Shown: positions 2,075-54,697 of the stretch, in pieces
Position numbering within the stretch: the first letter of the stretch is position 1
Layout of the letters: the number at the start of each line of letters is the position of its first letter
Assembly (NCBI GenBank): GCA_016647705.1
Contig: CM028329.1
Location: 17,107,410-17,171,409, forward strand
DNA: 64,000 nt
From: Eucommia ulmoides
Taxonomy: Eukaryota > Streptophyta > Magnoliopsida > Garryales > Eucommiaceae
Direction: 5' to 3'
Translations under genes and position numbers: made by a program
Notes under the pieces: model-generated
Databases searched by the model: none
Told to the model about the DNA's origin: nothing
The model's input: the letters and a program-made list of their open reading frames with translations, nothing else

Positions 2075-3309
2075 TAGATTAAATATTTGACGTAATGTAA
2101 GAATGCATTGATCAACGGGCTTTCATATTATTCTTATATATTACGAACGGTCTACAAGAAACTGGGAAGAGACACAAGTGAATTTTTAACTTGAGGTTCT
2201 TAACTGCTTCAACGGTCGAATTTTTAACACCATATTTTGTATAGTAACACGGGGTTGAACCAAATAATAGAATGGTAATTTTTATCACTATTTCATCTAT
2301 GTTAGGTATATAAGATTATTTTTCTTCCATTTTCGAGTATTTTTTTTAATTCTGTAAATCATGGAAGTCGACAATCTCAAATCAAACAAGGTATCATGTA
2401 CTTGGATTAACAGGTAGCAGTTGACAAACTATGTATTTTCATTAGCGGATCATCTTTTTGGGTCCGCAATATTAGCAACGAATGTCATTGGAACTCTACA
2501 AATGTTGTCGAATTGTCACCGAAGTTTTGTAAATATCATCGATTTTCAACACAGAAGTTTTGTGAATGGCATATGAATGTCACCTTAATTCTGCAAATAT
2601 TGTCGGATATTTTAATTGAGATTATTTTCATTCTCTTTTCTCCCACAACTTCGTCGGATGTTTTTAATCTATTCATTTTTTTATATGAGATTTTATTTTC
2701 AACAAAATTAAAAAAGTTTCGGCAACTTCACCAGACTTTTAACTTCTTTTTTTCTTTCCTTCTTTTTTTTTTTATTTTTTTTTTATTGGGTTTTGGGAGG
2801 GCATTGTTTTGCTATAATTTTGCAATATTTTTCCACTTAATTTTCAATTGAGATTTTTGTCAGGTAGGCCACCGGAGCTTTGGTAATTTATTTCGCTTGT
2901 GCATAATTTTCGAGTAATGTTTTTAGAGCTCTGACCAATTCGTCGATTGGTACTCGAGACTTTCTTTCTTGCTAAATTGTTGGATCTCCAACGACTTCCC
3001 CGGATTCTCTTTCCATTTATTTTCAATTGAGACTTTTTTCTTTTAGGAAGAATTCGGAAAAACTCAATTTTTACCATTAAAATTAGAATAAGCCACTATT
3101 TGCAAATTTATATTAAGAAAATACTATTTATATATTTATTATTATTAAGATAAATTCAAACATATATTTTCTCACTACATCAATAGCAAAATAATAAATT
3201 GGGGTAATGTTAATAATATAATGAATGGGGAGATGTAAATGTTGTTTTACAGTAACATAATGAATGAGAGATGTAAATGTTATCGTATAATAAACAATTG
3301 CCGTATGCT
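2075..3309. other. AT-rich intergenic sequence, no gene recognised
   Basis: Contains degenerate short repeats built on TCTGCAAATATTGTCGG-like strings (2490-2610) and two direct copies of TTTTCAATTGAGA (near 2840 and 3020). Short open frames are low-complexity Phe/Leu-rich translations of T-rich DNA and are not believable genes. Confidence 0.45.
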
Positions 3310-3427: not shown

Positions 3428-3859
3428 TTGTGTCATATTATAAAATATCCATTTTTATTTGAATATTATACATAACGCACAATAGATCTATTAATTTTAT
3501 ATTTAATATATTTTTAAAAAGCGTAGAAAAACAAATTTTTAGATTGTGAAATAAAAAACAAAATTATAACTAGAAAGCTAATGTTAACCTCTGTGACTGT
3601 TAATGTTCATCTTTCATAATTAGATGATAAATAAAAAAGTTCTCAAATGAATTTTTCAAATTTTGTATTTTTTTTAAATAATAACTTTAAAATAATCTAA
3701 TAAGTTATTTATATGTTGTTTAGTAATTTCTATTATTTGGTCAAGAATTATCAAATAGTTGGAAAGAGAAAAAGGAAGAGAGAAAATCATATATAATTAA
3801 TTATGATAAAAACAATCATAAACCAAATGGATAAAGACTTTTTTGGTCCTTGAGAAATG
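3428..3859. other. AT-rich spacer, nothing recognised
   Basis: Very AT-rich sequence leading up to the left inverted repeat of the MULE-like element. No open frame, RNA gene or terminal repeat could be recognised. Confidence 0.4.
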
Positions 3860-5596
3860 TCTTTGGTGTCTAATTGATCCCTAAGAAATGCAATTCGACA
3901 ATTTGGCCATTAACATTTCAAAATAGTGTTCAATTGGCCCTTTAAACGAATTCCGTTAACAAAATTGGGAGGAAATGGACGAAAATAGCACGTGACAAGC
4001 ACATGACTATTTTGGTCAAGGGTACATGCGTCAATTCGCAATTAGGGGAGAAATTCGAAAGGTCTAAACTCATGGGGAGTAAAGTGCAATTAAGACTCTC
4101 TCCCTCTCTTTCTCATCTTCTTCCTCTGAACTCTCAAAAATCGAAATCCAAAACAAGATCCAAATCGAAATTCATCTTTCATCGTGATTGATTCAATAGT
4201 GCGATTGCTCGACGCGTTTGTGAAACAAGTCCATGACAAAGTTAACCTGGTTCTCTCGGTCGAAGCTATCCGTGGACATAGGGATCGAATCGGGTTCGGA
4301 AATGTTGTCGTTTGAGACTTGGGTTGGAGTATGATCGTGGCAGGTAGAGGGTTGAGGACGGAGTGAGAAATCCGACAGTGAAAAATCGAGATCTGACGAG
4401 TAGATGATGAAATTGCTATAACAATTGACGAACCTGAAATCAAATCCATTGAAGAAGTTTTGAGCTTTGAATCGTAGCTTTCGTGATGATTCATCTTCTG
4501 TTCGCGCTTATTTTTGCCGAGATGGCTCTAGTTATGGTCTTCGTCTTCAAGACGCCTCTCTGGCGGCCCGTGATAATTGGACTGGACCGGATCAAGAGCG
4601 GAAGAGGTCCAATCGTCGTCAAGACCGTCGGTTCCACCATGTTCGTGGTGATGGTGTTGAGTGTGTACAATGCGGTGAAGATCCGGAACCGTTGGATTGT
4701 CGACGGCAATGTAAATACGACGGATCAAGTTCTCTTCGCTAAACACGTGCTTGAAGCTTCTCTCATGGGTAAAAACTTCTCCATTTTTTGTTTTGCTTGA
4801 TCCGATTTGTGATCTGTTTAAGCTTATTTCAGAAGAATGAGGTCTGAATTGTCCAAATGATGTTGAATTTTTAAAATTTTTCACAAACGTGAAGAGGTTT
4901 AATTTTAACGAACCAGAATAATTTGCTATTATTAATTCTTCTAGAATGAGATAATTGCTAATTGCATTGAAATCCATATGCATATATACTCATCAGATAG
5001 CAATATGGCATTGAATTTTCGATAAAAATGTTTGAATTTCTGAGAAACTATAAACTTCCAGTCGTCGCGACTTCTTCTTCTTCTGCTTTTGTTTCCATGT
5101 TTCTACTGTTCAATTGGATGTTCAATTGTTTTGTTTCCATGTTTCTATTTTTGCTTCTGCTTCTGTTTTCCATGTTTCTGTTTCTGCTTCTGCTTCTGTT
5201 TCCCATATTTCAATTTATGTTTCCGTTTCTCGTTTAATTTTGTTCATTTGCCACAGATGGCTTTGGAGACAGTGTTGAAGATGGTAATTCTTTGGCGGAG
5301 GTGGCGGTGTTGTGTCATTCGGTGGTGGTGTTGTATTGTTTGGAACGATCGATCAAACGGTTTCGGTTACGGTTTTAGATTTGAAAATCGAAGCGTTTAT
5401 AGTTTTGACCCCTAAAAGTTTAGATGATTTTTCAAATTAATCCTATTGAATAAAAAAATCAAAATACCCTTAATGAAACGTTGACCGTTACTTTGACTTC
5501 ACAGAACCCGACCCAAGGGCCAATTGGACACTATTTTGAAATATCAAGAGTCAAATTGTCGAATTGTATTTTTTAGGGCCAATTGGACACCCAAGA
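3860..5596. mobile_element. MULE-like element with long inverted repeats and a captured gene fragment (Pack-MULE candidate)
   Basis: About 80 bp at 3860-3940 reappear in reverse complement at 5518-5596. Shared blocks include CAATTCGACAATTTG, ATTTCAAAATAGTGT and CAATTGGCCC in the same order. Long inverted ends around an unrelated host-like exon are the structure of a Pack-MULE. Inside are a pyrimidine-rich stretch resembling a 5' UTR (4090-4200), the BAP31-type exon (4483-4768) and filler with TTTCTG repeats (5090-5230). No transposase is present. I could not find a convincing 9-11 bp target duplication, so the exact outer ends are uncertain and another TIR superfamily is possible. Confidence 0.65.
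4483..4800 (+). pseudogene. BAP31-like ER membrane protein, captured first exon
   Basis: From the ATG at 4483 the frame gives a hydrophobic N-terminus (MIHLLFALIFAEMALVMVF), then KTPLWRPVIIGLDRIKSGRG, PIVVKTVGSTMFVVMVLSVY and DQVLFAKHVLEASLMG. These are the first two membrane spans and the connecting motifs of plant BAP31-like proteins, which are ER-resident three-span proteins involved in export and quality control of membrane cargo. Homology stops exactly at GG|GTAAAA near 4768, a plausible splice donor. The next 30 codons to the stop at 4798 read as intron. No later exon (third span, coiled coil, KKxx tail) occurs before the right inverted repeat, so only exon 1 with its donor was captured from DNA. 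The frame is intact and a short membrane peptide could be made if it is transcribed. Confidence 0.75.
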
Positions 5597-6265
5597 TATA
5601 ACCATTGTCATATAATCCAATAATGATTTATTACAATTTTTATTTATTAATAGTTTCATTCATATTAAAAAAAAAAAAAAAAAAGTAGTGGGCTTATGAA
5701 TTTTTTAATTCTTATTTTTAACTATTTATTGTGTTTATCATTTTTAACTCGTTTCCTATATAAAATTAATTGCATAAAAAACAAATATATATATATTAAA
5801 ACTTATATGAGAAACAAATAATATAAAACAATAAAACAATTATTTTTAAAAACAAAAAATAAAAAGCCTAGTAATTGATAGGTTTTTTTGTTATGTATTT
5901 ATTATTTCAAACTCATTGAAATAACAGATATATAAAATGTTAAATAGAAAGAAATTGAGGAAAATTGAGATTTTGTGCATAGAGAATCAAAGAGAGGAGA
6001 AGAAATACATTTGTTGAGGTCACTTTCATTTCTTAGTGTATGCTTTCAATTTCAAAAATAGTTTTAGACTTGTTATTATGTTGGTCTAAAAAAATTATAT
6101 TAATATATATTTTTTATTTGAATATTACTCATAACATTCATTGATATTTTAATTTAATATTTAATACAATTATAAATGTGTAGAAAAAATAACTTTTAAT
6201 GCTGAAAAATAAAAATAAATTGTGATATGGGGTAGTTTGACTAACCACTAGCATCCACTCAGAAC
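5597..6265. other. AT-rich spacer, no gene seen
   Basis: Poly(A) tract at about 5665-5683 and many A/T runs. No open frame with similarity and no inverted terminal repeats could be made out. Confidence 0.4.
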
Positions 6266-6428
6266 GAAACACGTGGCATGTTGGCCCCCCTGGGAACTCA
6301 CTTCATCTTTGAAGAATGGAGTTGGTCCATCCCACCAGATTCAATATGGGCCGAGCTCCTTGTATACGGAGTTTGTCCACTTGAAGGCCCATCCAGTCTA
6401 AGAAGGCATGTCAATGGGAAAATCAGCC

Positions 6429-6893
6429 AAGCTCGAGTTGTCAAGCTACCTCTATTCGGTCATCATCTTGGAAAGGCCCTATGGGATTTCAGTCGAGCAC
6501 GAGTTGCCGAGCTACCTCTGCTCGCTCATCATCTTGGGAAGGCCTTATGGGATTTTAGCTGAGCTCGAGCTATCGAGCTACCTCTGCTTAGTCACCATCT
6601 TGGGAAATCCCAATGGGACTTATACCGAGCTCAAGCCTACCATGTTGCCTCTTCTCAGCTATTGCCAAAAGGGGACGCCTTTGGGAGTACAGTCGAGCTC
6701 CAGCCTGTTGTTCTGCCTCTACTCGACCATTGTCAAAAGGAGATGCCTTTGGGCAGCCAAGCTCCAGCTTGCCGTTCTGCCTCTACTCGGCCATTGTCAA
6801 AAGGGGACACCTTTGGGAGTGCAGTCGAGCTCCATCTTGTCGATCTGTCTCTGCTTGACCGTTATCAAATGAAAGGCTTATAGGATTTCAATG
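6429..6893 (+). repeat. Seven-unit tandem array of about 66 bp with GAGCTC at unit starts
   Basis: Units begin at 6429, 6495, 6561, 6627, 6695, 6759 and 6827, with the next start at 6894 (spacing 64-68 bp). Each starts RAGCTC/RAGCAC, continues to a CTACCTCT or TGCCTCT block, then a CATC/CCATTGTCAAAAGG block. The first three units resemble each other most and the last four form a second subgroup, so the array grew in at least two steps. It lies in the U3 position of an LTR, where such arrays often act as promoter-proximal enhancer repeats (inference). Confidence 0.85.
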
Positions 6894-7604: not shown

Positions 7605-7985
7605 TTTGGTTTTGTCTATGGGAAGACTACTAAAAGCTTTCCTCTGGTTATCACTCTCTATCAGCTAAGACTTGATGATCACAAGGTCTGGTCAGATCTT
7701 CGAACGAAGAAACCAAACTCCCACCGTGAACAGTCACCAGGACAATCAATCCGGAAGAGATAAAAACATGTCTAAAATCTCGAGGTCAGATGCTCGAGAT
7801 CCTACCAACAAAGAGATCTACCGCCCACGGTCCAAACGGGCTCGTCCACCTTGCCTTCTGGTACCTTTGTAAGAAAGACCTTATGGGCTACTGAGGCCTC
7901 TCGTATTAACCTTCTAGAGTGCCAAATCAGTGAGTTTCAGACATATATCTTAGTCCTCTCGTGCCTGCCGTTAGCCCCCGTAGTG
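7605..7985 (+). pseudogene. Degenerate primer-binding site and start of a Gypsy internal region
   Basis: TTTGGTTTTGTCTATGGGAAG (7605-7625) resembles the TTTGGCGCCGTCTGTGGGAAG string that follows the 5' LTR in many plant Gypsy elements. It is followed by an open stretch with MITRSGQIFERRN (from 7672), which looks like a leader or gag N-terminus. Similarity ends near 7985 where minus-strand Copia sequence begins, so the element is truncated there. Confidence 0.45.
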
Positions 7986-9498: not shown

Positions 9499-11018
9499 AG
9501 TCTAGTCTTTGCACATTCATATTTCTAGTTACATTTTAAAACATTTAGAAAAATAATGAGATTCATTGTGCTATTTAATATTTACTTTTAAAAAATTTAG
9601 GGGTTACTTGAACATTTAAAAAGGTTGAATTTAAAAATTTTGGGGATTAATATGTAAATTTAATTTAATTTTTAAAGTTTTAGTGATTGATATGTAATTT
9701 CAAAATTTACTCTTAGAGTTTTTGGGATTGAACAAACATATATAATATTGTTTTAAGGTTACATGTGTAAATAAACAAAAAAAATCCTCTTCTTCTTATC
9801 ATGTTAGGCGGTGGATTTGAACAAAAAAAAAAAATAACAATAATAATAATAAGAGCTATCCAAATTGCCATGATTAAGTGATAAAATAAAAAGGGAAAAA
9901 AAATGTGGTTGTAATCTACTGTGAAACCCAAAAAAAAAAATAAAAAAAAAAAAAAATACAATTTGAGGTAAGGCAGTGGGATTCAACACACACACACACA
10001 TATCTATTATATAAAACAGGACGATTTTTTGGCTCATTAGGATAAACTTATGACTAGGACAAAAAAATATGATTAGGACAAATAAAGTTGCTGATTAGGA
10101 CAAACTAAATGCTGACTATGACATTTTAAGACATAAGTTGAGGACGTGTAAGGAAATTAGATTTGTCAAATAGGAACTCGGATTAATGTAAATGGAAATC
10201 AAATTAATATAGTATTGATTAATTAATTAATTAGACAAATGCTGACTAGGACAAACAAATTTGCTGACTAGGATATTTTCGAGATATAAGTTTAGGGCTA
10301 TAAAAGGAAATTGAAATTTAATTTGGGGCAAAAAATGTTGGGATACATATATGACCCTAAATTAACATTAATTAGTAAAAATAATGCCTAAAATAACATT
10401 AATGCCTAATTTTTTTGTCCTAATCACATTAAATTTCCAATTAATTAATTTTAGGGTCAAAATTAACATATTAAGTTTAGAGCCAAAAGTTTAGCCAATA
10501 ATATTATTTTAGGTAACGATTTATCCATTTTTCTCTAATTAAATTACTAATTAATTAATTAATTTAGACATTGATTCATCCATTTTTTCTTAATTAAACT
10601 ACTAATTAGGATTCAATTTAATTAATCCTTTTTTCAGCTCTCTCTCTCCCCAATTACAGTGCGCTTTTCCCTCTTTTCTGTAGTTACTCACCCTAAGTAA
10701 TTGAAGAACGCATCCTATTTGTGAGCACGTGATCAACTATTTACTGTTAAAAATGTTCATATTTTGTAATTTATGCTGATTTTGAAATCTTTTGTCTCTA
10801 CCTCTTTATTTTGCTAAATTTTAGTTCGTTATGTGTTCATCAGACTTGAAATATTTATTTCATGTGATTGTCAATTAACTTTTAAAATCATATTTTAAAA
10901 TATTAATTAAACCTATCATTTTTAGCACAAAGAATAAAGAAAATCTCTTTAAATACGTTGTTTTGTCATTGCTTGAAGGTCCGTGCACTATAGACACATA
11001 CATGTGTGCGCACACATC

Positions 11019-11667
11019 ATCCACATACACATATATAAGATAATATATATTGAGGTTTCAGGAAAACGTGATTTTTTTGTGAGCTTATTTTATTTTAATT
11101 CTAGCGTAAATAGTTTGTCAAGTTTACACGTTATTCTTTATTTTTTTAAGTTATACCTTGATTCTATCCGAATAGGAGGTAAGGTCATATTATTATTGGT
11201 TTTCCTTACAATGTGTATGTTCATTTGAGATACATTTTACGAAATTAATTATTGTCGTAAGAAATTGATTTTTGAATGCGTTTTTTGGGTTTTTTTTATT
11301 TGGCTAGGATTTTTCTTAAAAATATTTTTTAAGTGTTTGTATTTGTAATAAGATTGTTTCGTAATGAAGTATAATAGTGCTTTTGGGCTTTCTTAATGAA
11401 GTATAATAGTACTTTTAGGTACGCATTATGCACTAATTGTTCGGTACCATTATTTTGATTGGATAATTTCATAATTGTTATTATTTTTATTTCAATTGGT
11501 TTATAACTTACTTTGAAGATTAAATTATATATAAAACTGTAGAATATCATTGGATTTTTTATATTGTTGAATTTTTTTATATCAGAACAAGTTTTAGTCT
11601 CAATTTTTAATTACAATTGATGTTCGATTGTTAATTATTATCGATGTTCAAATGAATAGGTGTATTA
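11019..11667 (+). repeat. Helitron internal direct repeat, copy 1
   Basis: About 650 bp nearly identical to 13177-13828; in the compared first 230 bp only about eight differences are seen. Starts ATCCACATACACATATATAAG and ends AATAGGTGTATTA. No recognisable protein. Confidence 0.9.
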
Positions 11668-12175: not shown

Positions 12176-13176
12176 AGGGCTTAAATATAAGGGTTATTAT
12201 GTAATTTAAGATATTGATTCCATTAGCTTAGAATCTCATTCCACCTCATCTCAAATGGAATCTCATTCCACCCTATTTCATTTCAATGGAATCATAAAAG
12301 TGATTTAATTGGAGAACCAAATAATGGAATAAGAATCGAGAGCGGAATGCGATTTCATTCTGCTCCTAATTCCGTCCAACCAAACATGCCGTTAGGGTTT
12401 TCATAAAGTGTAACAAATGAGATCGAACTAAACTCATTTATTTTAGAAGTTTTTACTAATTTGGTACAAGTTATAGGAGCTTCCATCAACTACCTTGTTA
12501 ATAGTTCCATTAGACATCGGTGAGAAAATTATGGACGTAAAACTAGGTGAGATAGACAGGAGAAGAAAGGGTTTGCAAATGAGGATCGAAACTGCTAACT
12601 TGAAGTCTCAAATTCTTTGATGAATGTTTGAAGGCTTTGTCATAAAGTTTCTTATATTTTCATTTTGCAAATTTTTATCTACATTTTTTAGCTATATTTT
12701 TCTAAAATATTGAATATTAACGCCATATCTCTTAATCGCATCTATGCATATGTATGTCATGTCCGATTTGAAATTAAACTATCAGCCCTTCAAAACACTT
12801 TGATACATATTTTGTTTGTATCCCGTCATCTTCCATGCGTGTCCATGTCCATATGTGTTCAATATACATACGACCATCCTGCAAATATCAGTATTTTCCC
12901 ATCTTTTTGTTTATATTCAGAAACAAAAAATAAAAATACTAAGGTGGTGTTTGGTAACCGTTTCTGTTTCCATTCCAGCAGTGGGATGAGAATTTTATTT
13001 TCTTCTTGGGAGTAGAATCGCGTTTGGTAATGATAATTTTTTTTTTGGTTTGGAAAGAGAATCGCGTTTAGTAACGATTTTATCTTAAAATCAAATTATT
13101 ATTTTTTTGCCGGACGACGATGGCGATGGCGACGATGACCGGCGGGTGGGGTGACGGTGGCGGACGGCCTACACAC

Positions 13177-13828
13177 ATCCACATACACATATATAAGATA
13201 ATATATATATTGAGGTTTCAGGAAAACATGATTTTTTTTGTGAGCTTATTTTATTTTAATTCTAACGTAAATAGTTTGTCAAGTTTACACGTTATTCTTT
13301 ATTTTTTTAAGTTATACCTTGATTCTATCCGAATAGGAGGTAAGGTCATATTATTATTGGTTTCCCTTGCAATGTGTATGTTTATTTGAGATTCATTTTA
13401 CAAAATTAATTATTGTCGTAAGAAATTGATTTTTGAATGCGTTTTTTGGGTTTTTTTTATTTGGTTAGGATTTTTCTTAAAAATGTTTTTTAAGTGTTTG
13501 TATTTGTAATAAGATTGTTTCGTAATGAAGCATAATAGTTCTTTTGGGCTTTCTTAATGAAGTATAATAGTACTTTTAGGTACGCGTTATGCACTAATTG
13601 TTCGGTACCATTATTTTGATTGGATAATTTCATAATTGTTATTATTTTTATTTCAATTGGTTTATAACTTACTTTGAAGATTAAATTATATATAAAACCG
13701 TAGAATATCATTGAATTTTTTATATTGTTGAATTTTTTTATATCAGAACAAGTTTTAGTCTCAATTTTTAATTACAATTGATGTTCGATTGTTAATTATT
13801 ATCGATGTTCAAATGAATAGGTGTATTA
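13177..13828 (+). repeat. Helitron internal direct repeat, copy 2
   Basis: Partner of 11019-11667, offset by about 2160 bp. It is followed directly by the last 136 bp of the Helitron. Just before it is a GC-rich stretch of GGCGAC/GGTGACGG repeats (13112-13170) that differs sharply in base composition from its surroundings. Confidence 0.9.
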
Positions 13829-29700: not shown

Positions 29701-32700
29701 CTTTATTGATGTGTTTGGGTACGTTCAACAAAACAGTCACAAAGTGTAGCGCTTTCTCAATACTATGATTTATAAACACCATTGGAAGCAAACCAATGCT
29801 GGCCTCCGTAGCACAGCCAAAAAAAATCATGATCAAAAAATTAGAATCACAAAGTGTAGCTCCCACTTATGATTTTTATTGATGAATTTTGTTTCACTAA
29901 ATTTATTTAGTCATTGATTCTTCATATGTTTCAAAAGTACTATAACAATTCTCAATCAAATAAAAGAAATAATTAAAGAACATACAAAATCTGAAGAAAA
30001 GAAACCTCTTTGGAGTTTTTTTACTTCTTTACTATTTTTTTCTGAAAACAAATAACTGTGATGGACGTTAAGGTTGTTTTTGGATAAGGGATTTGGGGGA
30101 AGGATTTCATTTGTTCAAAGGATTTCACAAATTTTTTTTAGAAAATTCTTTGTTTGGGTACTATGAGAAAGGAATTATAAAATCCATTCATTTGTAAAAT
30201 AGGAGAATAAGAGGGACCCTTCAAAACACGTGTTATTTCTAAATCCTTCCAAGAGGGAATTTGCTATTTTTTTAAATTCTCATCCATTTCACTTGAATCC
30301 CATTTTTTATTTTTTTTTGGGATTATATGACTTTCAAAATTCTCTCCTCTCTATATATTATATGATAAAACTATATTTGTAAAATATGTATAAAAATCAT
30401 GTTTTTAAATAGTGATGTGTAATTAAAGTTATATTATAAAAATTATATTATTAAAATAGGTATAAAATTTATATTATTAAAATTATAGTATTAATACTCA
30501 ATAAAAATTATATTATGAGATATATTTTCATATTTTATTACTCAAATTTAATAGATTTCAAAATTCTACATACAAGCACTTGTCTATCCGAAAAAGGAAA
30601 TTATGAAATTACACAATATTTTAATTCAATTAAAGAAGTTATCCAAACAAGAAATTTGCAAATGATGGGATTTTGAAATCTCATCATTTACAAATTTCAA
30701 GGATTTATCAAATCCCTTACCCAAACGCAACCTCATTATTATAATGTATATCCAACATCGTTGGGACCAAACCAATGAGCTCTTATTGAGTTTTAAACTA
30801 AAAGGATAACTTGAGAGAAGAATGAAATAATAACAGAAAAAAATTGGGTTTACTCATGATTTAGAAGAATACGAGGTTTCAAGCAAGCACCCAAAAACCG
30901 ACCTCACCCCCACCCACCCCAAATAAAAAGAAAGAAAATAATACATCTACGCATATATTTTTTGCCATCCAAAACAAGCTTAGTTTCTCAGGTACAAGGA
31001 TTTAAAACAACAGTTGCAGTACTTTTAGCAGTGATAACAATAAGAATATTTTAGCAACATTATTCACGTGTAAATTTTAGTTTAAATCATGAAAATAAAC
31101 TTACTTGCGTGAAGCGGATAATTATAGTATTCATGTCAATTTCCATCAATTTGTGTAGAAAAGCAGACTATGATTACTTAAGGAATCTAGATAAACATAT
31201 TGTCAAGGTTCATTGCCACACATGCATACCTTCTTCATTCCAATCATGTTTAGCCGATCATCAATGCCTATTGCAAGGACTGCATCGACAACCATTGAAG
31301 CGAAAAACTCTTTCTCTCCGCCAATGAGCTTAGAGGAAAGTGTTGTAGCTGCACACTTAGCTAGCAAGCTTTTCTTTTCTTCCATACTTTTTCCCTCTAT
31401 GCTAACAGCCAAGTCTTTAACCTTTTCAATTGCCTATTGCATGCGAAGGATGCATTACGATGAGTATAACACCTCAAACCAAAATTAAACGACCAGAGGA
31501 AGAAGCATAACATTAAAACTTACCAAATGGGAAGCAGTGCGATAACTGCGTATCAAATTCTGAGGGTGGACTCCATCCTCGATGAAAGGCTTGGCTTCCT
31601 TCAGAAACTCTCCTGCCAGCAGAACTACAGTGGTGGTTCCATCACCTACCTGAACCACAACAAGAACATATTGAACTTCCACAGATGCTTCACAAAAATG
31701 ATTCTGGAGCAGATAAAGATAAGGGTAAGGGAAATCTACCAACACTAACTTTCACAGTCAACAAATGGTATGAAAAGTATTATATGCTGAATAACACAGG
31801 TCCGACTTCAATGTTAAAGAGTGACAAATTTCAAAGCACACCATTTACCCCCACCCCCCCCACCCACCCGGCACACACACAAATGATTGGAGGAATCTTT
31901 TGAAACTCACTGCATTCACAGCTGAAAAACATTAATTAACTTTTATCCCATTTTAAACACCATCCCAGATGATTTTAATATTTCTTGGTAATGAGGAAAA
32001 AAAATGTATGCAATCAACCTTTTTTCCAAGAACTAGTTTCCAGAGATTTATCAAAACAGATACCCATCTCTGCGAAGCCAATTAAAACTAATACCCAAAT
32101 GAAATCCAAGCGAGGGCTTTTGAAACCGTGAATCCACTAGTAAAGAAAATTTAATTAAAATTCAGACCCAACAAAAAGAAGCGAAACGAGAGCAACAATT
32201 GCAGTACCTCAGAGTCCTGTGACTTGGCAATGTCAACTAGGATTTTGGCTGCCGGGTGCACGATATCTAGAAGCTTCATAATAGTGGCTCCATCATTAGA
32301 AATGGTTGTGTTACCCTTCTCATCGTGGATCAACTTGTCCATTCCCCTTGGCCCTAGCGTGGACCTGACAACATCAGCCACAACCATGCAAGCACTAATG
32401 TTGCTCACCAACTGTGCCTTCCCTTGCGATGTATCAGTGCCTTCCTTCAACAGTATGATTTGAGGTTGCTGCGTACCAGAAGAAGGAAATCAGACAAGAC
32501 AAACAATCACCCATTTCAATCAAATAACTCAGACATCACTAACAATCACCCAATGCAATCAAATATAGAAATAGAAGAAAAGGCATGTGCTTGGCTGCAA
32601 AGAAAAAACTGTAAACAAAGTACTTGAAACCTCACATTGAGTTAGATCTTCACAGAAACCCAAGGTGACATTCAATCAAATCAAGAAACAATTTTAAAAA

Positions 32701-53200: not shown

Positions 53201-54697
53201 TCATTTTGGAACCCAAACTTGTCTACAGTTAGATATTTTAGTAAAACATCTACAAATAGTACACCCTACAATGTTACATTTAAAACATTTCACAAGATCC
53301 TTGGTTTTAGAAAAGAATTTATGAAAGCGTTTTGATTTAATATTTTTCTGAAAACCAACACTGGCTTTATAAAAAACTCCACGTGAACTTCCCAAAAGCA
53401 TTTTCAAATTATTTTCACCACCGGTGAATTTGAGAATAATTGATTGCAAATCCATCAATTTAGATTTCAACCAATTGTTTTCAGATTTGTAGTCCACCAC
53501 TTGCTCATTTAATGTGTTAATTGTACTTTGAAGGGCATTTATTTTAGAACAATAGTTTTTATAATCATGTGAAAGTTCTTGATGAACATCAAACAATTCA
53601 TCAAAATTTAAAGGACAAGAACTTGAACAATCGATTACCTCACCACCAGTGGCCATTAATGCAAGCATGGAAGTATCATCATTATCTGATTCTTTCGAGC
53701 TATTTGAATTGGTATCATCCCAAGTAGCCTTCATTGATTTCTTCTTACTCTTCTTTGCTTTCTTATTTTCTTTCTTCTTCTTCTTCTCATTTTCTTTATC
53801 CTTCTTCGGTTCGGGACAATCATTTTGAAAATTACCGATTTTACGACAGTTGTAGCATTGTACTTTAGACATGTTGAGATTTCTTTTCCCACGGAATGTG
53901 CGCCGAGTCATTATTCTAAAGTTATTTGTGAGAAGTGATACATTCTTCTCTTGCTCACTATCAAGACTTTCATCATCACTGTCATTCTCTTCTTCAATTT
54001 TTTTAACTTTTAGCGCCAAGGATTTCTTCTTGCCATTTCTGGTATCATTCTCATAACCTTTAATTTCCGATTCATGTGTCATCAAATTGCCAATGGGACC
54101 ATCAATATCATATTTGCCAAGATCCTTGGCTTCCTCGATTGTCGTCACCTTTAACTCCCATAGTTTTGTCAAGGACCTTAGGACCTTTCGTAGTCTATCA
54201 TCCATAGAATATGGCTTTTCGAGTTGACTCATGTTGTTGCATATATTGTTGAAGTGATTATACATCTCATGAATCGATTCATTCTCCTCCATCCTGAACA
54301 ACTCAAATTTTCTCAGAAGTGCATTGATTTTTTACTGCTTCACTTGACTTATCCTTTTGTGGGTGACTTGTAGCTTATCCCACATCTCCATTGCGGATTT
54401 ACAACCTGAAACTCTAGAATACTCATTAGCATCTAAAGAACAAAAGAGAATATTGATAGCTTGAGAGTTAATGAAGAGTTTCTGTTTATCGGAAGCGGTG
54501 AGTTGTTCCTTCTTCTTTTCAACTCCGTTTTCTATTGGAATGAATGGACCATCCTTGATTGTTATCCACACGTCGTAATTTGTAGTTCGAAGAAAGGCTA
54601 TCATCCTGTCTTTCCAAAATGAGTAACTTTCACCTGCAAACAAGGGTGGTCGGTGTATAGACTGCCCCTCAACTAGTGTGCCTACTATATGTGCCAT
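53201..54697 (-). pseudogene. Element C gag
   Basis: Begins MAHIVGTLVEGQSIHRPPLF with SYSFWKDRMIAFLRTTNYDVW, typical of SIRE-type Copia gag. The frame continues uninterrupted except for one TAA at 54332-54334, then through the UBN2 gag core, a Lys/Glu-rich segment and a zinc knuckle CYNCRKIGNFQNDC (about 53840; G-H changed to G-N). It ends at 53201. The gag-pol boundary needs a frame change. Almost intact for its age. Confidence 0.9.

Follow-up and report, generated by a model that had tools for sequence, protein, structure and literature searches.

A probable decayed Pack-MULE in Eucommia ulmoides carrying the first exon of a BAP31-type gene and a RING-finger gene fragment

The window analysed here, a stretch of 64,000 nucleotides from the genome of Eucommia ulmoides (C5:17107410-17171409), holds towards its left end an element in which the 5' end of a BAP31-type gene lies between a pair of inverted arms, together with an antisense piece of a second gene and sequence that is shared with many other loci (Table 1).

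Table 1. Features of the element in the window, with strand and the basis of each assignment
Feature	Position	Strand	Remarks
Left terminal inverted repeat	3829..3942	+	tip GGATAAAGAC
Left subterminal sequence, common to other family members	3943..4099	+	3961-4099 at 86-95% in 16 loci
Captured BAP31 leader, first part	4100..4199	+	parent L015:1011-1110
Second captured fragment, part of a RING-finger protein gene	4200..4404	-	source L020:1649-1870
Captured BAP31 leader, second part, to ATG	4405..4485	+	alignment to parent
Captured BAP31 exon 1	4486..4768	+	open, 94 codons + 1 nt; 24/283 differences from parent
Start of parental intron 1, donor GTAAAA	4769..5056	+	parent homology stops at 5056
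Element-internal sequence, no match to BAP31 parent	5057..5407	+	found at many other loci; dispersed repeat 5161-5343
Candidate chimeric terminal exon	5257..5378	+	acceptor TTCATTTGCCACAG, AG 5255-5256, in frame with exon 1
Probable internal deletion scar	5402..5407	.	6 bp matched by both sides
Right subterminal sequence	5402..5514	+	comparison with other loci
Right terminal inverted repeat	5515..5599	-	outer ~30 bp missing

Elsewhere the window holds a direct repeat (11012-11667 and 13171-13828, 659 aligned columns at 97.3%, 1.5 kb apart) that shows no obvious LTR ends and no obvious flanking duplication within 15 bp to either side. Between 45687 and 57531 blocks of 0.3-2.2 kb are found in direct and inverted order at 66-91% identity around a match to a copia-type gag (53201-54331), these are probably nested LTR retrotransposons. 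An exon-sized match to the TCP-1/cpn60 chaperonin family at 31500-31661 on the minus strand (3.5e-13) is probably part of an ordinary host gene. Rfam gave nothing at the gathering threshold in the window.

The element and the origin of its cargo

The inverted arms of the window copy (3857-3942 and 5515-5599) align over 86 columns at 85% identity, in agreement with the inverted ends of about 80 bp that were described in the first-pass annotation. Their local alignment scores 105, compared with a top score of 91 and a next best of 45 for 1966 random pairs of 300-bp segments from the window, and the pair that scores 91 may itself be a repeat pair. The extent of 3860-5596 that had been given for the element needs correcting at both ends, since other copies show the left tip to be at 3828/3829 and the window copy to have lost its right tip. 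In most other copies the offset of the flanking duplication sets the end one base further out, the window base at 3828 being T. The ends of the element family start GGGATAAAGAC, and the long terminal inverted repeats are of the MULE type, with arms of ~114 nt in other copies and 86 columns left in the window copy, which is damaged: it has lost an internal block and the outermost part of its right end. At the site of the block, 5402-5407, five other copies (L010, L011, L016, L017 and L018) hold 0.9-1.7 kb and L014 holds 3.6 kb; judged from this comparison, the site is probably the scar of an internal deletion in the window copy. No target duplication of the window copy was found: matches beside its ends are at chance level, and the only recurrence of the 9 bp next to the left tip in the 3 kb to the right has one mismatch and lies at 7709, well away from the end. 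A minisatellite with periods of 66 and ~132 bp lies to the right of the element at 6423-6869.

The open exon 1 of BAP31 type and its splice donor, both previously described, are present: the ATG at 4486 opens a frame of 283 nt, the exon ends in ATGG immediately before GTAAAAAC, and the GT of the donor is at 4769-4770. A pyrimidine-rich leader had also been described and such a stretch is found at ~4095-4136, part of it (4105-4124) is also common to other elements of the family, and the left capture junction falls within a CT-rich tract (~4100-4124) that is present in the element and the parent both.

The parental BAP31 gene, which the first-pass annotation had proposed to look for in the same genome, was found with both coding exons in a search of the plant's own assembly (947 Mb, 391 contigs). 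It lies on contig C54 (L015, exon 1 at 1181-1463 and exon 2 at 2720-3102) and has a product of 221 aa that matches Pfam Bap31_Bap29_C at 8.9e-9, above the cut-off, and falls below the cut-off of the transmembrane-region model PF05529 (E 0.049). The captured exon-1 product is 87% identical to the parental exon-1 product, and over the 4 kb compared L015 matches the element solely at 4100-4199 and 4405-5056 and is without element ends. Judged by these alignments, L015 is the parent of the captured exon, or its closest surviving relative. It is through this parent, whose full product passes the Pfam cut-off, that the captured exon is assigned to BAP31. A search of the genome with the exon-1 protein gave 16 matches, which are the 11 element copies (window included), the parent and four more distant relatives on C2 and C14 (38-54% identical), among which L036 also has an exon-2-like stretch within 3.3 kb. 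The exon-1 protein found nothing in the Pfam, PDB, prokaryote-genome and viral collections, with the Pfam result being uninformative since a presumed Arabidopsis exon-1 fragment is likewise not recognised as Bap31 by Pfam (E 0.34 when exon-2 residues are added). Compared directly with this presumed Arabidopsis sequence, the exon-1 product of the window has 61 identities in 95, which serves as a lead only.

That no later BAP31 exon accompanies the first had been noted before and continues to hold. The parental exon-2 protein reaches a best score of 50 in the window, with 20 shuffled proteins scoring 38-49 and the parent itself giving 625, and exon 2 was not found in the sequence compared from the 10 other element loci. 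Retroposition was considered and is ruled out, because the start of intron 1 is still there.

In exon 1 (L015:1181-1463) the parent departs from the majority base of the copies at nine sites, and eight of these are third codon positions. The corresponding numbers are 3 in 270 for the intron and 10 in 170 for the leader, where several of the sites belong to the CT tract. Parent and copies differ by more silent change than would be predicted from the intron; gene conversion in the parent is a possible explanation of this excess, as is a different donor allele.

The element had been thought to have caught a single fragment, this proved wrong as an antisense piece of a RING-finger gene is also inside it. 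Window positions 4195-4416 match L020 at 93% on the opposite strand, within a 482-codon open frame of L020 that has a RING finger, and L020 matches the element solely there. In the window the piece lies within an ORF at 4193-4507(-). It splits the captured BAP31 leader at a point where the parent is uninterrupted, its junctions share ~2 bp with each source, and it is carried by 4 of the 11 copies (window, L009, L010, L011) and absent from the other seven. Because it interrupts the BAP31 leader and seven copies are without it, the RING piece would have been the second to arrive. The common junctions of the four copies point to a single insertion; in a tree of the captured DNA the four are not grouped, with support values of 0.51-0.84.

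The element family and its mobility

As a query against the genome the element gave at least 96 matches (40 of 1767 candidates scored). Eleven loci, the window included, hold the BAP31 leader, exon 1 and intron start between the ends of the family, and 20 further loci share parts of the element, 16 of these loci being bounded by the same ends at left and right. Pieces of the BAP31 leader, exon or intron or of the RING gene are absent from all 20, judged by matches of at least 35 nt at an E of at most 1e-4. Thus the same inverted ends are found around other internal DNA in 16 elements, as the first-pass annotation had suggested might be seen, and its reservation that the inverted repeats could be unrelated, with no mobile structure, can be set aside, the repeats being mobile ends.

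Of the 21 testable elements, 19 lie between direct repeats that are 8-11 bp long and differ at one position at most (score of at least 6). Random placements reach this score in 1.1% of 6300 cases, and for real and random sites the scoring used the best fit among lengths of 8-11 and offsets of up to 3. The two elements below the threshold are L011 and L042. Elements with an end missing, or absent from the sequence compared, were excluded, namely the window copy, L009, L012, L017, L019, L037 and L053-L056. Duplications of 9 bp make up 12 of the 19 and 11 of the 19 are at the same offset, simple A or T runs account for five (L014, L038, L039, L046, L052), and amongst the BAP31-bearing elements a duplication is seen in five out of six. 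The prediction of target duplications of 9-11 bp is therefore borne out in other members of the family and not in the window copy, where the right tip is lost.

The family is large, with 1029 first-look candidates for the end sequence (40 scored), and many of the matches to this sequence come in pairs or triplets ~190 bp apart, that is, as tandem ends. No transposase was found by Pfam in the window copy (11 translated stretches of 3860-5600, one of them in duplicate), and by this measure, which applies to the window copy alone, it is non-autonomous. With regard to an autonomous partner, the family ends match none of the four MULE transposase loci compared, among the 150 matches listed. Among the 150 MULE transposase matches listed in the PF10551 search, 15 have identical scores and an open frame of 757 codons each; this group is perhaps a recently active autonomous MULE.

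Decay and selection on the captured exon

The window copy differs from the parent at 15 of 170 sites in the leader, 24 of 283 in the exon (8.5%) and 12 of 284 in the intron, and over the copies the divergence of the exon from the parent is 6-13%. With the 11 copies pooled, transitions per site in the captured non-coding DNA are 0.10-0.14 for CG, 0.09-0.17 for CHG, 0.05-0.09 for CHH and 0.002-0.006 for A/T, the leader rates including part of the CT tract, which may be element DNA. In the exon, A/T transitions reach 0.045 and are mostly at sites where the parent differs from nearly all copies. The bias of decay towards cytosines suggests the pattern expected of methylated DNA.

From its unbroken frame the captured exon had been taken to be either recent or under some constraint. 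Neither is upheld for the window copy, the exon of which is 8.5% removed from the parent with private changes that are 2 synonymous and 7 nonsynonymous, as neutrality predicts, and its open frame is no evidence of constraint. Over the copies 27 of the private exon changes are synonymous and 49 nonsynonymous; under neutrality 26.5 synonymous ones are expected, with a 95% range of 19-35 (the last 8 exon columns of L009 are masked in this count and unmasked in the pair counts).

When the copies are divided post hoc, neutrality does not hold evenly over them: private synonymous to nonsynonymous changes are 21:23 in the six frame-intact copies compared with 6:26 in the five broken ones (Fisher P 0.015), and 19:16 in the frame-intact copies minus the window copy (two-sided P 0.02). 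Also post hoc, exon 1 of L016 (C10) and L017 (C14) shows 12 synonymous and 3 nonsynonymous differences, and between these two copies the exon is the slowest of four segments, at 5.3% compared with 6.0-10.5%; it is the fastest in 10 of the 12 other copy pairs compared. The figures for L016 and L017 are a weak, post hoc hint that their exon 1 may be under constraint. There is a slight chance that in these two copies exon 1, spliced to the acceptor provided by the family, gives a chimeric membrane protein that is expressed and weakly constrained by purifying selection; if this were true, the element would serve captured first exons as an exon trap.

Interpretation and comparison with known systems

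With a probability of roughly 0.95, the element in the window is a decayed, non-autonomous member of a Mutator-like (Pack-MULE) family, with host DNA copied between its ends. It was as a Pack-MULE with a captured BAP31 exon 1 that the stretch had first been described, and the discovery of the parent, of the same ends around other DNA and of duplications of ~9 bp in the family all strengthen that description, with a host gene fragment lying between the ends and its identifiable parent lacking them. The transposition of the window copy itself is inferred from its relatives, because it has no target duplication and its right end is broken. A single capture from BAP31 would have been followed by multiplication via transposition, with the transposase presumably provided in trans, and by cytosine methylation and decay. 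The captures may have taken place through template switching in gap repair, a published model of capture that comes from an animal study and whose use for plant Pack-MULEs is described as still to be explored (PMC8277862). Any transcript would encode no protein, or at most a two-exon chimera of 134 aa, and would most likely be functionless.

It could instead be thought that the locus is a living chimeric gene, in which exon 1 is spliced to the element acceptor at 5257 to give a short ER membrane protein that selection retains. The donor, acceptor and frame are compatible, since splicing from 4768 to the acceptor at 5255-5256 would carry the frame to a stop ending at 5378 and give the predicted 134-aa chimera; all 9 copies that can be aligned at this point (of 11, L011 and L013 being without an aligned acceptor) still have the acceptor AG, 6 of the 11 copies retain the ATG, the donor and an open chimera of 112-150 aa, and some frame-intact copies have the synonymous excess described above. 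However, the other 5 of the 11 are broken, by stops (L013, L018), loss of the ATG (L009, L011, L018), a 4-nt gap (L019) or loss of the donor (L009), and the private changes of the window copy run 2 to 7 in favour of nonsynonymous ones. Furthermore, because the acceptor sits in a dispersed repeat and alternative acceptors in the window copy also leave open frames, one of 122 codons, the predicted chimera is possible but would probably be without function, and a living gene is very unlikely.

A role that requires no protein would be that of a regulatory decoy, in which antisense or hairpin transcripts of the family give rise to small RNAs that target the parent of the BAP31 piece or that of the RING piece. 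The element does contain both sense BAP31 and antisense RING pieces, its cytosine-biased decay suggests methylation, and small-RNA control of parental genes by Pack-MULEs is cited in PMC8277862, yet an exon divergence of 6-13% from the parent weakens targeting and such a role is unlikely. Were the window copy taken alone, with no target duplication, it might also be read as the product of a segmental or ectopic duplication that copied the BAP31 5' end, with inverted repeats nearby by chance and no transposon involved; ten more copies of the captured stretch at other loci, the common ends around other DNA and the flanking duplications contradict this, and it is barely credible.

Under the preferred reading of a decayed Pack-MULE, one plant genome shows the parent, the order and junctions of two captures, multiplication, internal deletion and cytosine-biased decay. 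It also illustrates that an open captured frame is by itself no proof of function, as 6 of the 11 copies are open, yet the pooled changes look neutral.

The source family of the captured exon is that of the plant BAP31-like (PBL) genes, the counterparts of an ER membrane protein that crosses the membrane three times in its N-terminal part (PMC11222708); the element differs from these genes in holding exon 1 alone, the parental coiled-coil tail (exon 2) being absent. A limited literature search found no published report of a BAP31 5' end as Pack-MULE cargo, which bears on the cargo alone. This cargo, and a second capture inside the first, set the window family apart from other Pack-MULEs.

Pack-MULEs are themselves well known, and those of rice, tomato and Arabidopsis, as they are described in PMC3310237 and PMC8277862, resemble the present family in their long inverted ends, ~9-bp duplications, gene fragments and multiple copies, as well as in the lack of a transposase seen in the window copy. 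The terminal inverted repeats of MULEs are typically 100-500 bp, and tandem terminal inverted repeats are known for MULEs of tomato and Arabidopsis (PMC3310237); the family end matches ~190 bp apart are like these, although the window copy has a single pair. Stepwise gain, with a one-piece group and a subgroup that has a second piece, is shared with Pack-TYPE elements of other superfamilies, second captures being reported for a subgroup of a Pack-PIF family (PMC8903248), but those examples have 15-nt ends whereas the family described here is Mutator-like, with arms of ~114 nt and duplications of ~9 bp, and the window case fits the known behaviour of Pack-MULEs.
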